64,000 nt of DNA, taken from assembly GCF_030409835.1 (NCBI RefSeq), contig NZ_JAUFQO010000016.1:842263-906262 (forward strand), given 5' to 3'. The position numbers and the translations under genes are program-made. Under the pieces are notes generated by a model that saw nothing but the letters and a program-made list of their open reading frames with translations, was not told where the DNA came from and did no database searches. Below, piece by piece: positions 1-6,993 of this stretch. The stretch is from Lutimonas halocynthiae (GTDB taxonomy: Bacteria > Bacteroidota > Bacteroidia > Flavobacteriales > Flavobacteriaceae). How positions within the stretch are numbered: the first letter of the stretch is position 1; the number at the start of each line of letters is the position of its first letter.

Positions 1-126
1 AGCAGAATTAACTTTCAGATCATTGATAAAATCTGTTTCTTCATTCAGATGATCAAAGGCTTCCTGGTCTTGTATATAGGGTTTTACAATTCCTTTTAAT
101 TTAAGGATCATAGCTTCTTTTTCCAT
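1..126 (-). CDS. Acyl carrier protein, N-terminal part (cut by window edge)
   Basis: The reverse strand encodes 42 residues from an ATG at 126 running off the window start. The text (MEKEAMILKLKGIVKPYI then ...DFINDLKVNSA) has the layout of an acyl carrier protein: a first helix, an acidic loop, then the approach to the phosphopantetheine site. Ser41 in the VNSA context is the likely 4'-phosphopantetheine attachment residue, in place of the usual DSL motif. Only three bases separate it from the ketosynthase gene upstream, so it is the seventh visible gene of the polyketide operon and probably the dedicated carrier for its ketosynthase, dehydratase and reductase. The second half lies outside the window, so the family call rests on this half and on context. 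Confidence 0.72.
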   Translation of the reverse strand, partial: MEKEAMILKLKGIVKPYIQDQEAFDHLNEETDFINDLKVNSA

Positions 127-129
127 ATT

Positions 130-1404
130 CTAATCATTATATTTTTGAAAAACGATACAGGCATTTACATCTCCAAAACCGAAGCTCGCCTTAATCACTG
201 TATTTATTTCTTGTTTTTTCATTTTATGCGGTATAGCCGAAGCATTGATCAATTTAAGAATTTCAGGATGGATATCCTCGCAATTAATCGACGGAAAGAT
301 AAAACCATGAGCAATCTGTAAAACAGCTGCCACGCTTTCAATGCTCCCTGCAGCAGCAAGGCAATGCCCCGTCATACTTTTTAAAGAATTTATCACAGGA
401 AATTCTTCTCTTCCCAGCCCTAGAGCTTCTTTCCAATTATTGATCTCCATCGGATCTTTGATGGTTGCTGTTAAATGGCCGTTGATGCTGTCAATCTCGC
501 TTGCCTCAATGCCTGCATCTTTTACAGCTTCTCGTATACATCTTTGCACTGACTCAGGATTAGGCGCTGTCATAGTTCCCCCATTGCGTTGTCCTCCAGA
601 ATTAACATGACCACCTTTAACCTCTGCATAAATTCTGGCCCCACGCTTTTTTGCCGATTCAAGATCTTCCAATAAAAATGCACCTGCTCCTGATCCGGGA
701 ACAAATCCTGAGGCTGATACGCTCATGGGTCTCGACCCTGATTCCGGTGTTTCATTATGCTTATAAGTCATCACACGCATGGCGTCAAAACCGCCCCATA
801 TATAGGTTCCGTGATCACTGCAGCTTCCCACAAGCATTCTTTTGGCCTTACCCTGTCTTATGCGATCAGCACCCATTAAAATGGCTTCCGTTCCGGTTGT
901 GCATGCAGAAGAATTAGTAGTTACCTGGTTTCCACAGGCTAAAATACCACCCAGATAGGCACTGATACCACTTGCCATGGTTTGTGCTACAGTATTGCTA
1001 CCTAACCTTCTCACCATTCCCTCATCAAGTTTATAGATTGCTTCTCTAAATTTATCGACACCAGACTGACCAGTTCCAAAAACAATTCCTGTATCGTAAT
1101 CTACCTCAGCATCTGGCCCTTGTTTTAATCCTGCATCTTTCCATGCGTCCATTCCTGCCATGCATCCATACAGAATTCCTGAGCTATTGAAATTTTTTAA
1201 TTGCAAACTACTTAAGTATTGTTCCTTCATCTCTTGAGACACATCAGGTATTCCTCCAATACAACAAGAAAACTTGTGCTCTTTGAGTTCTGGATAAAAC
1301 TCAATACCAGATTTTCCGGCTTTAAGCGATTGCAAAAAATCGGAAACCCCTACTCCATTTGGAGCTACAACTCCCAAACCTGTTATAACAACTCTATTAT
1401 TCAT
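130..1404 (-). CDS. Beta-ketoacyl-ACP synthase (FabF/KAS II-like)
   Basis: A 424-residue thiolase-fold condensing enzyme that would extend an acyl-ACP with malonyl-ACP. It begins with the KAS signature MNNRVVITGLGVVAPNG. The nucleophile is Cys168 in SSACTTG; His310 (NGHLTAT) and His347 (KSMTGH) complete the Cys-His-His triad, so it should be active and is not a chain-length-factor-type partner. The first His sits in NGH where most FabF proteins have AHGT, a divergence expected of a specialised paralogue. Its ATG overlaps the end of the upstream dehydratase gene by 8 bases, and the ACP gene follows after 3 bases. It probably builds the acyl starter used by the type III PKS of the same operon. 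Confidence 0.9.
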   Translation of the reverse strand: MNNRVVITGLGVVAPNGVGVSDFLQSLKAGKSGIEFYPELKEHKFSCCIGGIPDVSQEMKEQYLSSLQLKNFNSSGILYGCMAGMDAWKDAGLKQGPDAEVDYDTGIVFGTGQSGVDKFREAIYKLDEGMVRRLGSNTVAQTMASGISAYLGGILACGNQVTTNSSACTTGTEAILMGADRIRQGKAKRMLVGSCSDHGTYIWGGFDAMRVMTYKHNETPESGSRPMSVSASGFVPGSGAGAFLLEDLESAKKRGARIYAEVKGGHVNSGGQRNGGTMTAPNPESVQRCIREAVKDAGIEASEIDSINGHLTATIKDPMEINNWKEALGLGREEFPVINSLKSMTGHCLAAAGSIESVAAVLQIAHGFIFPSINCEDIHPEILKLINASAIPHKMKKQEINTVIKASFGFGDVNACIVFQKYND

Positions 1405-1840
1405 AAGCAGCTTTTAGCATTCCGGCAATTTCTCCTCTGCAAATGAGCTCATTCTTCTCATTAAAAAGTTGCACGAAACATTTTAATTTTCCAAACCGGA
1501 AAACCTTCTTTTCTGATACCACAGTTACCTTTTCTCCTGGGAATACTGGAATATAAAAATCCATTTTATGAGAACTTAAGGCAATCTTAGGTAAACCCTT
1601 GTTAAGTTCATCTCTAATGAGATAGATACCTAAACAGACCAGTCCAATCTGTGCCATCGTTTCAGTCAAAATCACCCCTGGCGTTACGGGCTGGTCCTTA
1701 AAATGACCCTTGTAAAAATAACTCTCTTCACTAAAAGTATACACTCCTGTAATTGATTCTTCTGAGACCTCTATAATCTCATCTACAAACAAAAACGGTT
1801 CCCTGTAGGGCAAATATTTTATGATTTCTTCGGATGTCAT
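1397..1840 (-). CDS. 3-hydroxyacyl-ACP dehydratase (FabZ/hotdog fold)
   Basis: A 147-residue single hotdog-fold protein of the FabZ/FabA type that would dehydrate 3-hydroxyacyl-ACP to enoyl-ACP. It starts with LPYREPFLFVDEI, the usual FabZ opening. The catalytic pair is visible: His46 in GHFKDQP and Glu60 in PGVILTETMAQ, at the spacing found in FabZ. It lies between the enoyl-reductase gene (4-base gap) and the ketosynthase gene (8-base overlap), so translation is probably coupled. Together with the ketosynthase, reductase and ACP it makes a small private fatty-acid elongation set. A ketoreductase is not visible in the operon and may be borrowed from primary metabolism or lie beyond the window. 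Confidence 0.9.
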   Translation of the reverse strand: MTSEEIIKYLPYREPFLFVDEIIEVSEESITGVYTFSEESYFYKGHFKDQPVTPGVILTETMAQIGLVCLGIYLIRDELNKGLPKIALSSHKMDFYIPVFPGEKVTVVSEKKVFRFGKLKCFVQLFNEKNELICRGEIAGMLKAAYE

Positions 1841-1844
1841 TTTT

Positions 1845-2639
1845 CTAACTCATATTTTCTCCCCCGTCAACGGGTAACACACAACCATTGATCCAGGCCG
1901 CTTCTTGTTTACACAAAAGATATACTGCATCTGCCACATCTTCTGGCAAAGTCAGTCTTCCAAAAGGGTTTCTCATAACCGCATGTTCTTTGATTTTGTC
2001 ACTTCCGGGAATCATTCTTAACGATGCAGTATCTGTCACGCCTGCCTGAATGCAATTGGATCTGACCCCAAAAGCTGCAAATTCTAGGGCAATATTTCTA
2101 CTTATCGCCTCCAGGCTTGCTTTGGCAGCAGAAACTGCTCCGTAATTTTGCATCGCCTTACTGCTTCCTTCACTTGTGAAACTTATAACCCTGCTGTCTT
2201 TTGCAAATAAGTCATGATCAAAAACCAATTTAAACCAATCAAACAAACTTGTTGCCATAGCCCTGATTGTTATGTCAATATCTATCACACTTAAAGCTTT
2301 TGAGCCTTCAGCTGCCATTGGTTTTAAATTACCTTTTGCAACACTGTGCAGTAAGCATTTTATTTTTCCGTTTTCGCCTAATATTTCTTTTAAATCATGA
2401 ATGATTTCCATTTTTCGATCTTGATTTAAAAGATCCTTATTAAAACTAATAAAGGAAACTCCCATTTTTTTGATCTCTTGAAAATGCTGTTGAATTTCAT
2501 CCTGATCACTCTTGCGATCACGATGAACAATGCAAATATTCATCCCATGACTTGCTAACTTTTTTGCAGAAGCTAAGCCCAAACCCCTTGAACCTCCTAA
2601 AATGAGGGCCCATTGATTATCTTTAAACTCTTTTACCAT
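1845..2639 (-). CDS. Enoyl-ACP reductase-like SDR (FabI/FabL type)
   Basis: A 264-residue short-chain dehydrogenase/reductase. The nucleotide-binding glycine motif is GGSRGLGLA near residue 15. The active-site text is NYGAVSAAKASLEA, that is Tyr-x6-Lys, the spacing of FabI/FabL enoyl reductases and not the Tyr-x3-Lys of FabG ketoreductases. The end of the protein (INGCVLPVDGGENMS) is the usual SDR C-terminus. It should reduce the enoyl-ACP made by the neighbouring dehydratase with NAD(P)H. Its start overlaps the end of the type III PKS gene by 7 bases. A ketoreductase role cannot be excluded from sequence, but the spacing favours enoyl reduction. Confidence 0.85.
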   Translation of the reverse strand: MVKEFKDNQWALILGGSRGLGLASAKKLASHGMNICIVHRDRKSDQDEIQQHFQEIKKMGVSFISFNKDLLNQDRKMEIIHDLKEILGENGKIKCLLHSVAKGNLKPMAAEGSKALSVIDIDITIRAMATSLFDWFKLVFDHDLFAKDSRVISFTSEGSSKAMQNYGAVSAAKASLEAISRNIALEFAAFGVRSNCIQAGVTDTASLRMIPGSDKIKEHAVMRNPFGRLTLPEDVADAVYLLCKQEAAWINGCVLPVDGGENMS

Positions 2640-3685
2640 TTTAACAATACTCTTTGTGCTGAAAATCCAGGACCAAAACTTAACATGAGCCCTAAATCTC
2701 CTGCTGCCAAATCTCTTTCTAAAAAATTTTCTAAAACATATAAAACTGTTACACTTGACATGTTGCCATACAATCTCAATATCTCTTTTGTATCATCTAT
2801 GTTCTTTCCCAGACCCCCAAAAAGAGACTCAACGGTCTGCACAATTTTCTTACCGCCAGGATGAAAAATAAGATGATCAATATCTTCAATACTTTTTCCG
2901 TTTTTCTCTAAAAACGGATGTACAATATTTGGGAAATGCTCCGCAATCGTTTCAGGTACAGACTTGTCAAGAATCATTTGCAAACCAGAATTTCTCAATT
3001 TAAAACCCATCATCTTCTCTGCATCATAAAAATGATACATGGCTTCATCAACCACTTCGGGTCCTTTTTCATTCTCATGAGACGATAATATTACTGCCGC
3101 AGCACCATCTCCAAAAATCGCTGCACTGACCACATTTACCATCGAATAATCATCTAATTGAAATGTTGCTGTAGGTGATTCTACTGCCACCACGGCAGCT
3201 CTTTTACCAGGGTTTGCCTTTAAAAAATTCTTGGCATAAATAATACCCGACACCCCTGCAGCACATCCCATTTCTGTAACAGGCAACCTTACCACATCTT
3301 GTCTCATTTGCAGGCGATTGATCAGATAGGCATCAAGCGACGGAATCATAATTCCTGTGCAACTTACGGTGATTAGAAAGTCAATCTCATCTGCCTTCAA
3401 ACCAGCCTTATCAAGTGATTTCTTCAAACAGGACTCAGCCAGAATAATAGACTCTTTTTCGTAGATATCATTCTTTTCCTCAAAACTTGTTTTTGAAAAA
3501 ACCGATTCAGCATCCATAATCGAATACCGCTTATCAACTCCAGCATTTTCAAAAATTTTGATAACCTTTCGTCTAAAGCGATCTTCCTGATCTGCTAACC
3601 AAAGGTTCAAATACGGGATAATGTCTTTCGTATTTCTAGTATGTTTTGGCAGGGCCTTGGCCACTGTAATAATTTTTACACTCAT
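2633..3685 (-). CDS. Type III polyketide synthase (chalcone/stilbene synthase family)
   Basis: A homodimer-type condensing enzyme that extends an acyl starter with malonyl units and cyclises the product. With the start at 3685 it has 350 residues, the normal family size. The triad is present: Cys141 in TEMGCAAG, His275 in IFHPGGKK and Asn308 in LYGNMSSV; the C-terminal SFGPGFSAQ loop is also typical. I chose the ATG at 3685 because it overlaps the methyltransferase stop codon as ATGA; an in-frame ATG at 3706 would add seven residues inside the upstream gene. The genes before it are a methyltransferase and a flavoprotein, as in known phenolic-lipid clusters such as Streptomyces srsABC. The genes after it are fatty-acid enzymes, so a long acyl starter is the likely substrate. 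The product (alkylresorcinol, alkylpyrone, quinone) is not determinable here. Confidence 0.93.
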   Translation of the reverse strand: MSVKIITVAKALPKHTRNTKDIIPYLNLWLADQEDRFRRKVIKIFENAGVDKRYSIMDAESVFSKTSFEEKNDIYEKESIILAESCLKKSLDKAGLKADEIDFLITVSCTGIMIPSLDAYLINRLQMRQDVVRLPVTEMGCAAGVSGIIYAKNFLKANPGKRAAVVAVESPTATFQLDDYSMVNVVSAAIFGDGAAAVILSSHENEKGPEVVDEAMYHFYDAEKMMGFKLRNSGLQMILDKSVPETIAEHFPNIVHPFLEKNGKSIEDIDHLIFHPGGKKIVQTVESLFGGLGKNIDDTKEILRLYGNMSSVTVLYVLENFLERDLAAGDLGLMLSFGPGFSAQRVLLKW

Positions 3686-4389
3686 ATTTTCGTATACATG
3701 ATCCACTGGAATCTAAAAGCCCAGCGCCAACTTATTTCACTTTTTACCTTTATTTCTTTTGCGTAATTTTCAAGTTCACTTTTCTTGAATGACCTCAATA
3801 TAGAAACCAGTCCATCATTGCGAACTATCTTATTGTTAAACACCAGACTTATAACATAAAACAAACAATAGGCTAACTTACTTCTATGAAGATCATTGAC
3901 TACAATTCCAAGCTTTGTCTGCTTTTTCAACCAGTTCAGATGGTAAATCAGTTCTTTATCATCCAAATGATGTAAAAAAAGTGTCAACAGGGCTATATCA
4001 TACTCAAGTTCCTGAAATGCCTCAGAAAATATATTTAATTGAAGATAAGTGATATTTTTATAAGCCACCGATAATTCTTCTGCATATTTAATAGTGTCCT
4101 GATTAGCGTCAACACCAATCAATTTAAAATTATAGCCTAGTTTAACACCTAAACGTGCAATTCTTCTTAGCATGTCTCCATTACCGCAGCCCAAATCAAC
4201 GATAACAATTTCTCGCTGCTTCGATTGTTCAGCAACAAGTCTCTCAACTCCTTTAAGGGAAATACGATTGCCTCCCAACCATTTATTTATGGTTGCCAGA
4301 ATATCGAGGTTATCTCTTAAGTAAGCCCCTTCTAAAGTAAAATCATCCATGATCTCCCGCTCCTTGCTTCTTTCTCTTGTACTTATCAT
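3682..4389 (-). CDS. SAM-dependent methyltransferase, class I
   Basis: A 235-residue Rossmann-fold methyltransferase. The SAM-binding motif I is IVDLGCGNGDML near residues 63-74, followed by an acidic position in LIGVDANQ and the LLTLFLHHLDD segment (motif IV/post-I region) typical of small-molecule methyltransferases of the UbiE/Coq5 shape. Its ATG overlaps the stop of the flavoprotein gene (ATGA), and its own stop overlaps the type III PKS start in the same way. It most likely methylates the aromatic or pyrone product of the synthase, by analogy with SrsB in Streptomyces; O- versus C-methylation cannot be told from sequence. Confidence 0.85.
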   Translation of the reverse strand: MISTRERSKEREIMDDFTLEGAYLRDNLDILATINKWLGGNRISLKGVERLVAEQSKQREIVIVDLGCGNGDMLRRIARLGVKLGYNFKLIGVDANQDTIKYAEELSVAYKNITYLQLNIFSEAFQELEYDIALLTLFLHHLDDKELIYHLNWLKKQTKLGIVVNDLHRSKLAYCLFYVISLVFNNKIVRNDGLVSILRSFKKSELENYAKEIKVKSEISWRWAFRFQWIMYTKI

Positions 4390-5510
4390 ACTACTACTAT
4401 TGGTTTACCATGGGTCATTCTAATTATATACTTAATAAGCTTTGGATATTTCTTCAATAAATTCAAAGAGAATAAGGTCAAACTTTTCATCCGAAACATC
4501 CTTGAGAGTAATTTACCTGTTTGAATTCTAAGCTTAAATTCCTTTTCCCATTGGGCAACATATTTTTGTTCAACAGTTGTTCTATCCATTGAGCCATCAA
4601 AATACTGAATTAACAGTTCAGAGATCATTTTTGCACTGTTAATCGCCATACTCATTCCATTGCCACATAAAGGGTGTATCATCCCAGCACTGTCGCCACT
4701 CATAATGATATGATCTTCAATCAATGGCTTGGAGGCAAATGAAATCTGACTAATGCTCAGTGGCTTATCAAAAAGCAATTTGGAATGCTGAAATATTGAT
4801 TTTAGCTCTTTATTTTTAAACAGCACTTTTTCTTCAAAATCCTTAATGTTCTTATATTTTTTAAATTGAGCATATTCTGCAATATAACAGACATTTAGAT
4901 TGTTGTTTTCAACATTTGACACGCCACAATAGCCACCATAAAAATGATGTAAACCCACTAAGTTTTCAGGATAATCTCCTTTATAATGCGCCTTTACCGC
5001 AAGGTATGGCGCTTTACTTTTCAAGAATTTTCTCCCCATCTTCTGATCTAAATTCGACCGCTTGCCATAAGCCCCTATCACAAATACAGCCTCAAGAAGC
5101 GGGTGATTTTTAAGTCTTACATGAAAACGATTGTCTGTAAAATCAATTTCTGTAACTGAATCTTGAATAACAGTCACACCTTTTTTAACTGCTCTTTTGT
5201 ACAACAAATGATCTAATTGAAATCTGCTGATACTAAAACCTCCTAATGGCAATTCTGCAAAAACAGATTTTCCCTGTACAGCGCTTAATTCAAAATTATC
5301 AATCTTCTTCGCGCCAAATTTAAATGGATCAACGCCCAAATAATCAAGATATGGTAAGACTTCATTTGAAATGTACTCGCCACACACTTTATGCCTGGGA
5401 TATGGATTCTTTTCAATTAAAGTAACCCTTAACCCTGATTGTGTCAAATGCAAGGCACTGGTTAATCCTGCTAATCCGCCACCGACTATTACGACATTTA
5501 AAAGGGACAT
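4386..5510 (-). CDS. FAD-dependent oxidoreductase/monooxygenase (UbiH/geranylgeranyl reductase-like)
   Basis: A 374-residue flavoprotein, first gene of the type III PKS operon. It opens with the dinucleotide-binding motif VVIVGGGLAGLTSA and a Glu at the end of the second strand (LIEKNPYPRHKVCGEYIS), and has the second FAD motif GDSAGMIHPLCGNGMSMAI near residue 280. This is the shape of the geranylgeranyl-reductase/aromatic-hydroxylase group. In comparable clusters a flavoprotein hydroxylates the phenolic lipid ring to a quinol or quinone (SrsC in Streptomyces), so a tailoring oxidation is the best inference. The 223-base gap upstream, shared with the divergent NADH dehydrogenase gene, must hold the operon promoter; I see no clean TAnnTTTG element there. 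Confidence 0.85.
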   Translation of the reverse strand: MSLLNVVIVGGGLAGLTSALHLTQSGLRVTLIEKNPYPRHKVCGEYISNEVLPYLDYLGVDPFKFGAKKIDNFELSAVQGKSVFAELPLGGFSISRFQLDHLLYKRAVKKGVTVIQDSVTEIDFTDNRFHVRLKNHPLLEAVFVIGAYGKRSNLDQKMGRKFLKSKAPYLAVKAHYKGDYPENLVGLHHFYGGYCGVSNVENNNLNVCYIAEYAQFKKYKNIKDFEEKVLFKNKELKSIFQHSKLLFDKPLSISQISFASKPLIEDHIIMSGDSAGMIHPLCGNGMSMAINSAKMISELLIQYFDGSMDRTTVEQKYVAQWEKEFKLRIQTGKLLSRMFRMKSLTLFSLNLLKKYPKLIKYIIRMTHGKPIVVV

Positions 5511-5733
5511 GAAATCAAATCAATTTTTAAAGCAAAAAGATACAGCTATTTTGACGATATCTTAGCAATCAAATTTTATCAAAAAATAATAAGGAATGAA
5601 ACGGTCAATTTTTATATCAGGATTTTACACCAATATTAAATTCATAGTGAAGCGTGTTTTACCCTTAATTTTTCAAATCTTATTAGGTATCTTGTTCGAC
5701 GTTTAATAAGCTCTAATTAATATTTCTTGACAA

Positions 5734-6993
5734 ATGGCTCAAAAACATAAAATTGTCATCATAGGTGCTGGTTTTGGTGGCATAACTATGGCCAAGTATT
5801 TTAAAAAAAAGAATGTCGATATACTGCTGATCGATCAAAACAACTATCATAATTTCCAACCTCTTATGTACCAAATTGCAACAGGAGGTCTTGAACCATA
5901 CAGTATTGCATACCCGGTTAGAAGAATCTTTAGGAATCAGAAAAATATTAGATTCAGAATGGCCAAAGTAAAATCTGTTGATGTTGAGGACAAAAAAATA
6001 AAGACTTCTGTTGGCAGCTTTGCATATGATTATTTAATTATCGCCACAGGTAGCAAGAGTAATTTTTATGATTTTGAAGGCATCAAAAACATATTATTTC
6101 CTCTTAAATCAATTCCTGATGCATTAAATATGCGAAGTTTTATTTTCCAGAACCTGGAAAAATCTCTGACACGACAAGAGAATGAGTCTCTCGAAGAAAT
6201 TTTAAATATAGCAATCGTAGGCGGAGGCCCGGCAGGTATTGAACTCGCTGGTGCTTTGGCAGAAATGAAACAGTATGTAATTCCAAAGGATTTTCCGGAT
6301 TTGGATGTCTCAAAATTAAGTATCAATTTATACCAGTCTGCACCAAGATTATTAAAAACAATGTCTGACGAAGCTTCTCAAAAAAGCTTAAACTATCTGC
6401 AAAAACTTGGTATAAACGTCTTTCTAAATTCAAGAGTTACGCATTATGATGGAGATGAGCTGATCTTAGCCGATGGAAGCTCATTTAAAACAGATACGCT
6501 TATATGGACCGCCGGGGTAAAAGGCGCTTTAATCAAAGGCCTGCCCAAAAAGTCTATTAGCAGAAGTGGTAGAATTTTAGTTGATGCTTTTAACAAGGTC
6601 AGGCATTCAGATTCGGTATTTGCCATCGGAGATGTGGCCTGTCACAATACAGAAGAAAACCCAAGAGGAGAACCAATGCTGGCCCCTGTTGCCAATCAAC
6701 AAGGAAAATTGTTAGCAAAAAATATAATTCGTATTATTAATAAAAAGCCTATTCATCCTTTCGAATATAAAAATAGAGGTGCTATGGCAACAATTGGGCG
6801 AAAAAAAGCAGTTGTCGATCTTCCAAATTGGAAGTTTCAAGGCACGTTTGCCTGGTTTTTATGGATGTTTATACACATCATTTCATTGATAGGTTTTAGA
6901 AACAAGTTCGTGGCCTTCTTCGACTGGTTTACTAATTATTTAACCTATGACAAACCATTGGGGCTGATCTTAAGACCACATAAAAGAAAATAG
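5734..6993 (+). CDS. ndh: Type II NADH dehydrogenase (NDH-2)
   Basis: A 419-residue single-subunit NADH:quinone oxidoreductase that feeds electrons into the quinone pool without pumping protons. The FAD site is IVIIGAGFGGITMAK at residues 7-21; the NADH site is IAIVGGGPAGIELAGALAE around residue 162. The FAIGDVACHN motif near residue 298 is the second FAD contact. The C-terminus holds hydrophobic stretches (FAWFLWMFIHIISLIGF) that give the membrane association usual in bacteroidetal NDH-2. It is transcribed divergently from the polyketide operon. Nothing in the neighbourhood suggests a function other than respiration. Confidence 0.92.
   Translation: MAQKHKIVIIGAGFGGITMAKYFKKKNVDILLIDQNNYHNFQPLMYQIATGGLEPYSIAYPVRRIFRNQKNIRFRMAKVKSVDVEDKKIKTSVGSFAYDYLIIATGSKSNFYDFEGIKNILFPLKSIPDALNMRSFIFQNLEKSLTRQENESLEEILNIAIVGGGPAGIELAGALAEMKQYVIPKDFPDLDVSKLSINLYQSAPRLLKTMSDEASQKSLNYLQKLGINVFLNSRVTHYDGDELILADGSSFKTDTLIWTAGVKGALIKGLPKKSISRSGRILVDAFNKVRHSDSVFAIGDVACHNTEENPRGEPMLAPVANQQGKLLAKNIIRIINKKPIHPFEYKNRGAMATIGRKKAVVDLPNWKFQGTFAWFLWMFIHIISLIGFRNKFVAFFDWFTNYLTYDKPLGLILRPHKRK

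Follow-up and report, generated by a model that had tools for sequence, protein, structure and literature searches.

A conserved type III polyketide synthase operon with a putative acyl-ACP supply cassette in Lutimonas halocynthiae

Gene content of the locus

The 64,000-nucleotide stretch of Lutimonas halocynthiae DNA analysed here (contig NZ_JAUFQO010000016.1, positions 842,263 to 906,262; hereafter the window) starts with seven minus-strand genes, each of which overlaps the next or lies at most 4 bp from it in the open reading frame (ORF) table. In the order of transcription they encode a flavoprotein (FMO), a methyltransferase (MT), a type III polyketide synthase (PKS), an enoyl-acyl carrier protein reductase (ENR), a dehydratase (DH), a ketosynthase (KS) and an acyl carrier protein (ACP). 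The original prediction, made from the window alone, had claimed such a run of consecutive, overlapping or nearly abutting genes, and all seven are present. The window edge truncates the run within the ACP gene, of whose 249 bp 126 lie inside the window; genes for a phosphopantetheinyl transferase (PPTase) and then a small membrane-like protein continue it beyond (positions given in locus L003). Pfam agrees with the label of every gene of the predicted operon, and the top NCBIfam matches of the operon proteins all fall under the family cut-offs.

4386..5510, minus strand: FMO, flavin adenine dinucleotide (FAD)-dependent oxidoreductase of the p-hydroxybenzoate hydroxylase (PHBH)-fold monooxygenase/halogenase/geranylgeranyl-reductase superfamily (Pfam FAD_binding_3)
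3682..4389, minus strand: MT, class I S-adenosylmethionine (SAM)-dependent methyltransferase (Pfam Methyltransf_31/25/11)
2633..3706, minus strand: type III PKS, likely start ATG 3685, 350 aa (Pfam Chal_sti_synt_N/C)
1845..2639, minus strand: ENR, enoyl-ACP reductase-like short-chain dehydrogenase/reductase, an optional member (Pfam, NCBIfam, Tyr-x6-Lys)
1397..1840, minus strand: DH, FabZ-like dehydratase (Pfam FabA family; FabZ-type His and Glu)
130..1404, minus strand: KS, ketosynthase of a separate clade (Pfam ketoacyl-synt; Cys-His-His intact)
1..126, minus strand: 5′ part of the predicted dedicated ACP (entire gene L003:12141-12389; Pfam PP-binding at threshold)
L003:11557-12129, beyond the window, 11 bp from the ACP gene: PPTase (Pfam)
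L003:11124-11591, sharing 35 bp with the PPTase ORF: 155-aa protein, membrane-like by reading (no Pfam match)

Conservation of the cluster

In a sample of 100 Flavobacteriaceae genomes from 99 genera, L. halocynthiae included, a PKS with at least 65% identity occurs in 33, the next best match being 32% identical. The KS (E ≤1e-70) was found in the same 33 genomes, and the remaining 67 have neither; at high scores the two sets also share the same 33 genomes across 395 genomes of the phylum. The original prediction had made conservation of the fatty-acid genes with the PKS its own test, and the association holds, with a single exception (L142) among the best 80 named loci described below.

Gene content was counted in 50 clusters from fetched loci, using hidden Markov model profiles built from the family loci and score thresholds that we set ourselves. 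Because the profiles were trained partly on the same loci, these are counts of orthologues and no independent discovery. PKS matches occurred in 105 genomes of the phylum, and the 40 contexts retrieved comprised 18 clusters and 22 distant PKSs; L025, whose contig terminates within DH, stands outside the 50. FMO, MT, PKS, DH, KS and ACP are each present in 50/50 clusters, ENR in 39, PPTase in 24 and the membrane protein in 10. All genes present follow one constant order on one strand in every cluster. Such a gene set and arrangement goes far beyond what chance would give, the six genes other than ENR being collinear on one strand in all 50 clusters. Median gaps from FMO-MT through MT-PKS, PKS-ENR, ENR-DH and DH-KS to KS-ACP range from -4 to 5 bp, with individual gaps of up to 2.5 kb, and eight clusters contain one or two extra internal ORFs (in two of these eight solely a short, possibly non-genic ORF). 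In two clusters another methyltransferase gene stands between those for ACP and PPTase (L149:12352-13047 and L155:12424-13119).

The named loci are the best 80 of 580 relatives, that is, the nearest ones rather than a fair sample. They include Psychroserpens, Gelidibacter, Winogradskyella, Polaribacter, Lacinutrix, Tenacibaculum, Flagellimonas, Lutimonas and Bizionia, and also take in Chitinophaga, Membranihabitans and numerous metagenome-assembled genomes (MAGs). PKS was found in 80, FMO and MT in 78 each, DH in 77, ACP in 76, KS in 75, PPTase in 74, ENR in 66 and the membrane protein in 5. The gaps for ACP and KS are accounted for by contig ends (L157, L165, L214), by L142 and, for KS, by the broken frame of L156, and the FMO of L216 is truncated by the start of its contig. 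The loci lacking ENR belong to Polaribacter (10) and Winogradskyella (4), with ENR retained in Polaribacter L203 and L207. In L174 and L028 a putative Gfo/Idh-like ORF (by reading) occupies the position of the membrane protein.

Polyketide synthase, methyltransferase and flavoprotein

The catalytic triad of the PKS (Cys148, His282 and Asn315 in the numbering of the 357-aa frame) is present in 50/50 clusters and in the 32/32 other type III PKSs aligned. The start at ATG 3685 is the more likely one because it overlaps the MT stop and because 29 of 32 other orthologues align only from residue 5-10. Among the PDB matches listed, the solved chain nearest in sequence is Pks11 (E 1.5e-49), and neither the PKS nor the KS of the window has an NCBIfam match to the DarB family; the condensing enzyme is a type III PKS. 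The cluster PKSs form a single clade (support 1.0), which groups weakly (0.54) with 11 further PKSs, including several linked to MT and FMO; these supports were computed on an unrooted tree that holds neither of the characterized enzymes HidC and PkqA. Position 235 is Phe in 50/50 clusters and Trp in 30 of the 32 other type III PKSs. A reading of ring type from the PKS sequence was dropped, as the Trp281 switch of ArsB (PMC9927152; statements from cited papers refer throughout to their accessible parts) could not be mapped and the PDB matches listed for three PKS queries include no ArsB or ArsC.

A SAM methyltransferase and a FAD oxidoreductase adjoin the PKS on the same strand in 50/50 clusters. 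The top NCBIfam matches, both under cut-off, are PRK06202 for MT and GG-red-SF for FMO. The AlphaFold2 (AF2) model of FMO reached a predicted local distance difference test (pLDDT) score of 83.6, and its Foldseek matches are PHBH-fold enzymes of several functions. FMO was rejected as a halogenase, despite the halogenases among these fold neighbours, as it lacks the WxWxIP motif of that class.

The acyl-carrier cassette

The catalytic Cys, His and His of the KS are retained in 50/50 clusters. The protein is only 32% identical to the FabF of its own genome, and hence is no copy of it. Assignment as a FabB-type KAS I was hinted at by the identity to Escherichia coli FabB (35%, against 32% to FabF) and by plasmid matches (25 listed, at 34-35% identity: 8 annotated fabB, 3 KAS II and 14 unannotated). 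It was rejected as family membership, since neither NCBIfam, where FabF scores above FabB with both under cut-off, nor the larger of two trees bears it out. The smaller tree is unresolved (0.38); in the larger one the FabB proteins of E. coli, Sinorhizobium and Ruegeria join FabF (0.88), and the cassette KSs stand apart as one clade (1.0). In an alignment of eight, the cassette KSs share a GHLTxT motif with a one-residue deletion relative to FabB and FabF, and FGDxN in place of FGGTN. By sequence, the KS is thus neither FabB nor FabF but belongs to a separate clade.

For DH, FabZ is the top NCBIfam match (under cut-off) and the PDB matches are FabZ. When aligned to FabZ and FabA of E. coli, DH shows a His and a Glu of the FabZ type, both kept in 50/50 clusters, and at sequence level no FabA-type dehydratase/isomerase is indicated by residues or matches. 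The reductase had been called FabI-like in the original prediction. An enoyl reductase it appears to be: the Tyr-x6-Lys spacing is that of the class, with both residues in the 39/39 clusters that have the gene. Its nearest NCBIfam family is, however, FabL (E 8e-44, under cut-off). The carrier serine of ACP is conserved in 50/50 clusters within N-S-A in 49 and N-S-S in one, instead of D-S-L, and its NCBIfam ACP models fall under cut-off. No complete type II elongation cycle (KS, ketoreductase, DH and enoyl reductase) is encoded, the ketoreductase being absent from the operon and ENR optional, and no malonyl transferase gene was found in the operon. Elsewhere the genome holds housekeeping FabF and FabG-like genes (the best of the latter 49% identical to E. 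coli FabG), a FabI-like gene (29%) and a second FabZ-like match inside a 466-aa frame. A third KS (385 aa) sits between putative bioB and bioA ORFs, labelled by reading.

Cassettes and PKSs apart from each other

A KS search of the 395 phylum genomes (E ≤1e-80) returned 38, of which 33 have the cluster PKS and five do not. The KSs of these five PKS-free cassettes are 47-53% identical to that of the window. Opposite a dar block, both L237 and L238 carry an ENR-DH-KS-ACP-PPTase run, whose identities to the window are 53% for KS, 44-46% for DH and 42-44% for ENR and whose ACP again has N-S-A. The dar assignments pass the NCBIfam cut-offs in both (DarB 614.7 and 634.8 bits in L237 and L238, respectively, cut-off 550; DarG 191 and 197.8, cut-off 170; DarH 443.1 and 453.7, cut-off 300). 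The other three loci (L239-L241), from one distant family, carry DH-KS-ACP with GNAT-like and GT2 glycosyltransferase genes. Of these, L239 alone has ENR, and it also has a BioF/serine-palmitoyltransferase-like (pyridoxal phosphate-dependent acyltransferase) gene a few ORFs off; the three loci may belong to a further lipid pathway. The cassette KSs fall into T3PKS-linked (0.99), dar-linked (1.0) and GT-linked (0.99) subclades.

Distant PKSs of the phylum (31-38% identity) had no KS, DH or ACP profile match in 22/22 fetched loci within about 9 kb per side (4.7 kb downstream in L106), and the cassette neighbours are likewise absent from one further distant locus, L056. Eleven of the 22 carry an isoprenylcysteine-methyltransferase (ICMT)-like gene, five a class I MT and six none of the genes tested. 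Three of the five with a class I MT (L131-L133) combine it with UbiA, PKS and FMO, their FMO and MT being 36-41% and 31-41% identical to those of the window; prenylated polyketide phenols or quinones are possible products in these other Bacteroidota. The UbiA genes lie at L131:8655-9518, L132:7886-8755 and L133:10551-11450. Two plasmid stretches with a type III PKS and ICMT, L057 and L060, have a near-identical layout and are filed as Stenotrophomonas rhizophila and Lysinibacillus fusiformis; one of these organism labels may be wrong.

Flanking genes

The genes on either side of the operon are:

5511..5733, no strand: intergenic region separating the operon from divergent NDH2, presumed to hold the promoter (ORF table and sequence)
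5734-6993 of the window, divergent from the operon: type II NADH dehydrogenase, NDH2 (Pfam NDH2_C)
L003:7651-10993, 130 bp past the membrane-protein gene: MlaE-MlaF-MlaD-patatin run, excluded from the operon (Pfam)

Scans for promoters and terminators, with a Bacteroidota consensus, gave counts no higher than in shuffled sequence. NDH2 on one flank and MlaE on the other are common to the window, Lutimonas saemankumensis (L174), a MAG (L176) and genome G025 (L028), which places the genome of the window near Lutimonas. The Mla-patatin run downstream of the operon is also retained in L028 and L174.

Proposed pathway and alternatives

We favour, with moderate confidence, the view that the genes form a single operon making a phenolic lipid or quinone, in which KS-DH-(ENR)-ACP-(PPTase) would form a dedicated acyl-ACP supply to the PKS; the product is probably a fatty phenol or quinone. 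What is observed comprises the identities of the genes and their catalytic residues, their joint inheritance and constant order on a single strand, and the presence of this cassette next to dialkylresorcinol genes in other genomes; from these we infer substrate flow, chain, ring type and product. The PPTase, or a housekeeping enzyme, would charge the private ACP, and the KS would lengthen a chain taken from housekeeping fatty-acid synthesis. The keto group would be reduced by housekeeping FabG and the intermediate dehydrated by DH; ENR, or a housekeeping ENR where the cluster has none, would then reduce the double bond. Such borrowing would be necessary because the operon has no ketoreductase or malonyl transferase and ENR is optional. 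The finished acyl-ACP could prime the PKS, which would add malonyl units and close an aromatic (resorcinol) or pyrone ring. Methylation by MT and oxidation by the flavoprotein would then give a methylated phenolic lipid or benzoquinone. The role of an acyl supplier for a ring-maker gains independent support from the cassette adjoining dar genes in other Bacteroidota, where it perhaps hands the acyl chain to DarB. The private, tailored acyl-ACP supply of the original prediction thus agrees with co-inheritance and with the dar-linked cassettes, and needs amending in that the operon encodes no full elongation cycle.

Several observations weigh against this genome-based proposal. ENR is absent from 11/50 clusters and 14 of the best 80 named loci, and only 24/50 clusters contain PPTase. 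No ketoreductase gene was found in the operon by ORF table or Pfam, including the stretch past the window edge, and ACP barely reaches the Pfam PP-binding threshold (20.9 against 20.8 bits). A MAG, L142, has FMO-MT-PKS-ENR with no DH, KS or ACP within 7.7 kb past ENR, and frames are broken for FMO, MT and KS in L156 and for MT in L186. The AF2 model of the membrane protein (5 sequences) reached only pLDDT 50, and the ring type is not readable from PKS position 235, onto which ArsB Trp281 could not be mapped. Finally, the cassette is not specific to this PKS, because a divergent version occurs in 5/395 genomes without it.

This last observation, three of the five cases lying beside GNAT-like and GT2 genes, would also fit a mere neighbourhood created by shared regulation, and so would the PKS of L142 without DH, KS and ACP. 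The cassette would then make a special fatty acid independently of the PKS, which would use ordinary acyl-CoA. We consider this quite improbable given that PKS and KS occur in the same 33/100 family genomes with constant gene order in 50/50 clusters. An unsaturation branch resembling FabA-FabB(-FabI) or the FabN-FabO-FabI unsaturation system of Enterococcus would have DH also isomerize, KS extend the cis-enoyl chain and the PKS receive an unsaturated acyl-ACP, giving an alkenyl phenol. The fabA-fabB-fabI operon of Sinorhizobium meliloti likewise combines KS, DH and ENR without a ketoreductase, several lineages dispense with ENR, and the KS identities and the eight fabB annotations among the listed plasmid matches lean the same way. 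The FabZ-type His/Glu pair of DH, the higher NCBIfam score of the KS for FabF and the larger tree, which places FabB with FabF and away from the cassette KS, make this branch unlikely.

In a third rival reading, the product might serve as an alternative respiratory quinone and not as a structural phenolic lipid. In mycobacteria and Streptomyces, the pair of MT and oxidoreductase converts resorcinols to polyketide quinones (PMC9927152); genes related to FMO and MT are co-located with UbiA, and NDH2 is divergently adjacent to the operon in the window, L028, L174 and L176. Yet NDH2 does not neighbour the operon in any of the remaining 78 of the best 80 named loci and, among 32 other cluster loci of the family, does so only in L028, and neither sequence nor fold tells whether the flavoprotein acts as hydroxylase or reductase; we regard a respiratory quinone as rather unlikely. 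A broader proposal, to which we give less than even confidence, is suggested by KS-DH-ACP also standing beside dar and glycosyltransferase genes, so that the cassette looks like a portable acyl-ACP supply unit docked on different lipid makers. Bacteroidota might then possess a portable unit built on a hitherto unrecognized KS family (marked by GHLTxT and FGDxN), which brings its own ACP, frequently also a PPTase, and is docked on three unrelated kinds of lipid maker: a type III PKS, a dialkylresorcinol synthase or a glycosyltransferase/acyltransferase pathway. In Flavobacteriaceae this type II unit would feed a type III PKS to give a widespread, uncharacterized phenolic lipid or respiratory quinone.

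Comparison with known systems

Type III PKS clusters make up 10.74% of the biosynthetic clusters in 2,680 Flavobacteriaceae genomes (PMC10734526) and 9% in another survey of the family (PMC7440613). In Aquimarina, a type III PKS family matched no MIBiG compound (PMC9860996) and the clusters were called likely novel (PMC9323603). The accessible parts of these surveys name no product for the Flavobacteriaceae-type PKS. No description of the cassette with a type III PKS was found in the main texts of the open-access literature as far as accessible, and PMC9248904 gave no match for the terms searched. Should the PKS be fed by the cassette, the substrate of an orphan PKS class would be defined and the class open to direct genetic testing, and the occurrence of the cassette beside dialkylresorcinol genes would allow two unrelated ring makers to be compared on one acyl supply.

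The dar/flexirubin clusters resemble the operon in that an ENR-DH-KS-ACP-PPTase run adjoins DarB, DarG and DarH in L237 and L238; their ring maker is DarB (StlD/DarB family), whereas that of the window is a type III PKS. The fabA-fabB-fabI operon of S. meliloti shares DH, KS and ENR and the missing ketoreductase, but in the stretch compared ACP, PPTase and PKS are all absent, and its KS and DH come from other families. In the Azotobacter ars system, as in the window, type III PKSs are accompanied by their own fatty-acid synthase. There the acyl chain is transferred directly from a large type I fatty-acid synthase, whereas the window operon encodes individual type II proteins plus an ACP. The arsABCD genes are named in PMC4314083. 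The myxobacterial alkylpyrone gene cluster BGC0001831 has the core features of a type III PKS in common with the window operon and is likewise widely conserved within its own phylum (PMC12766979).

The original prediction had seen in PKS, MT and flavoprotein the known srsABC logic. The methyltransferase SrsB is of the ICMT type, which the MT of the operon is not, and the likeness to srsABC is one of analogy only. The underlying gene set of PKS, MT and oxidoreductase or flavoprotein is indeed an established one for alkylresorcinols and quinones (PMC10896814, PMC9927152, PMC8086630). It recurs in actinobacterial pkqABC/srsABC (PMC9927152), for which, compared by description only, the accessible text mentions no private fatty-acid cassette. 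MT, oxidoreductase and type III PKS also occur together in hidABC, the hierridin genes of cyanobacteria, and in an operon of Planctomycetota (PMC10896814), whose PKSs, when placed in a heterologous host, gave pentadecyl- and heptadecylresorcinols. These operons differ in having three genes in the order MT-oxidoreductase-PKS, with no KS, DH, ENR, ACP or PPTase described in the accessible part of that paper. PKS, MT and flavoprotein in the L. halocynthiae operon thus follow the known hid/pkq logic, and the added acyl cassette is what appears new.

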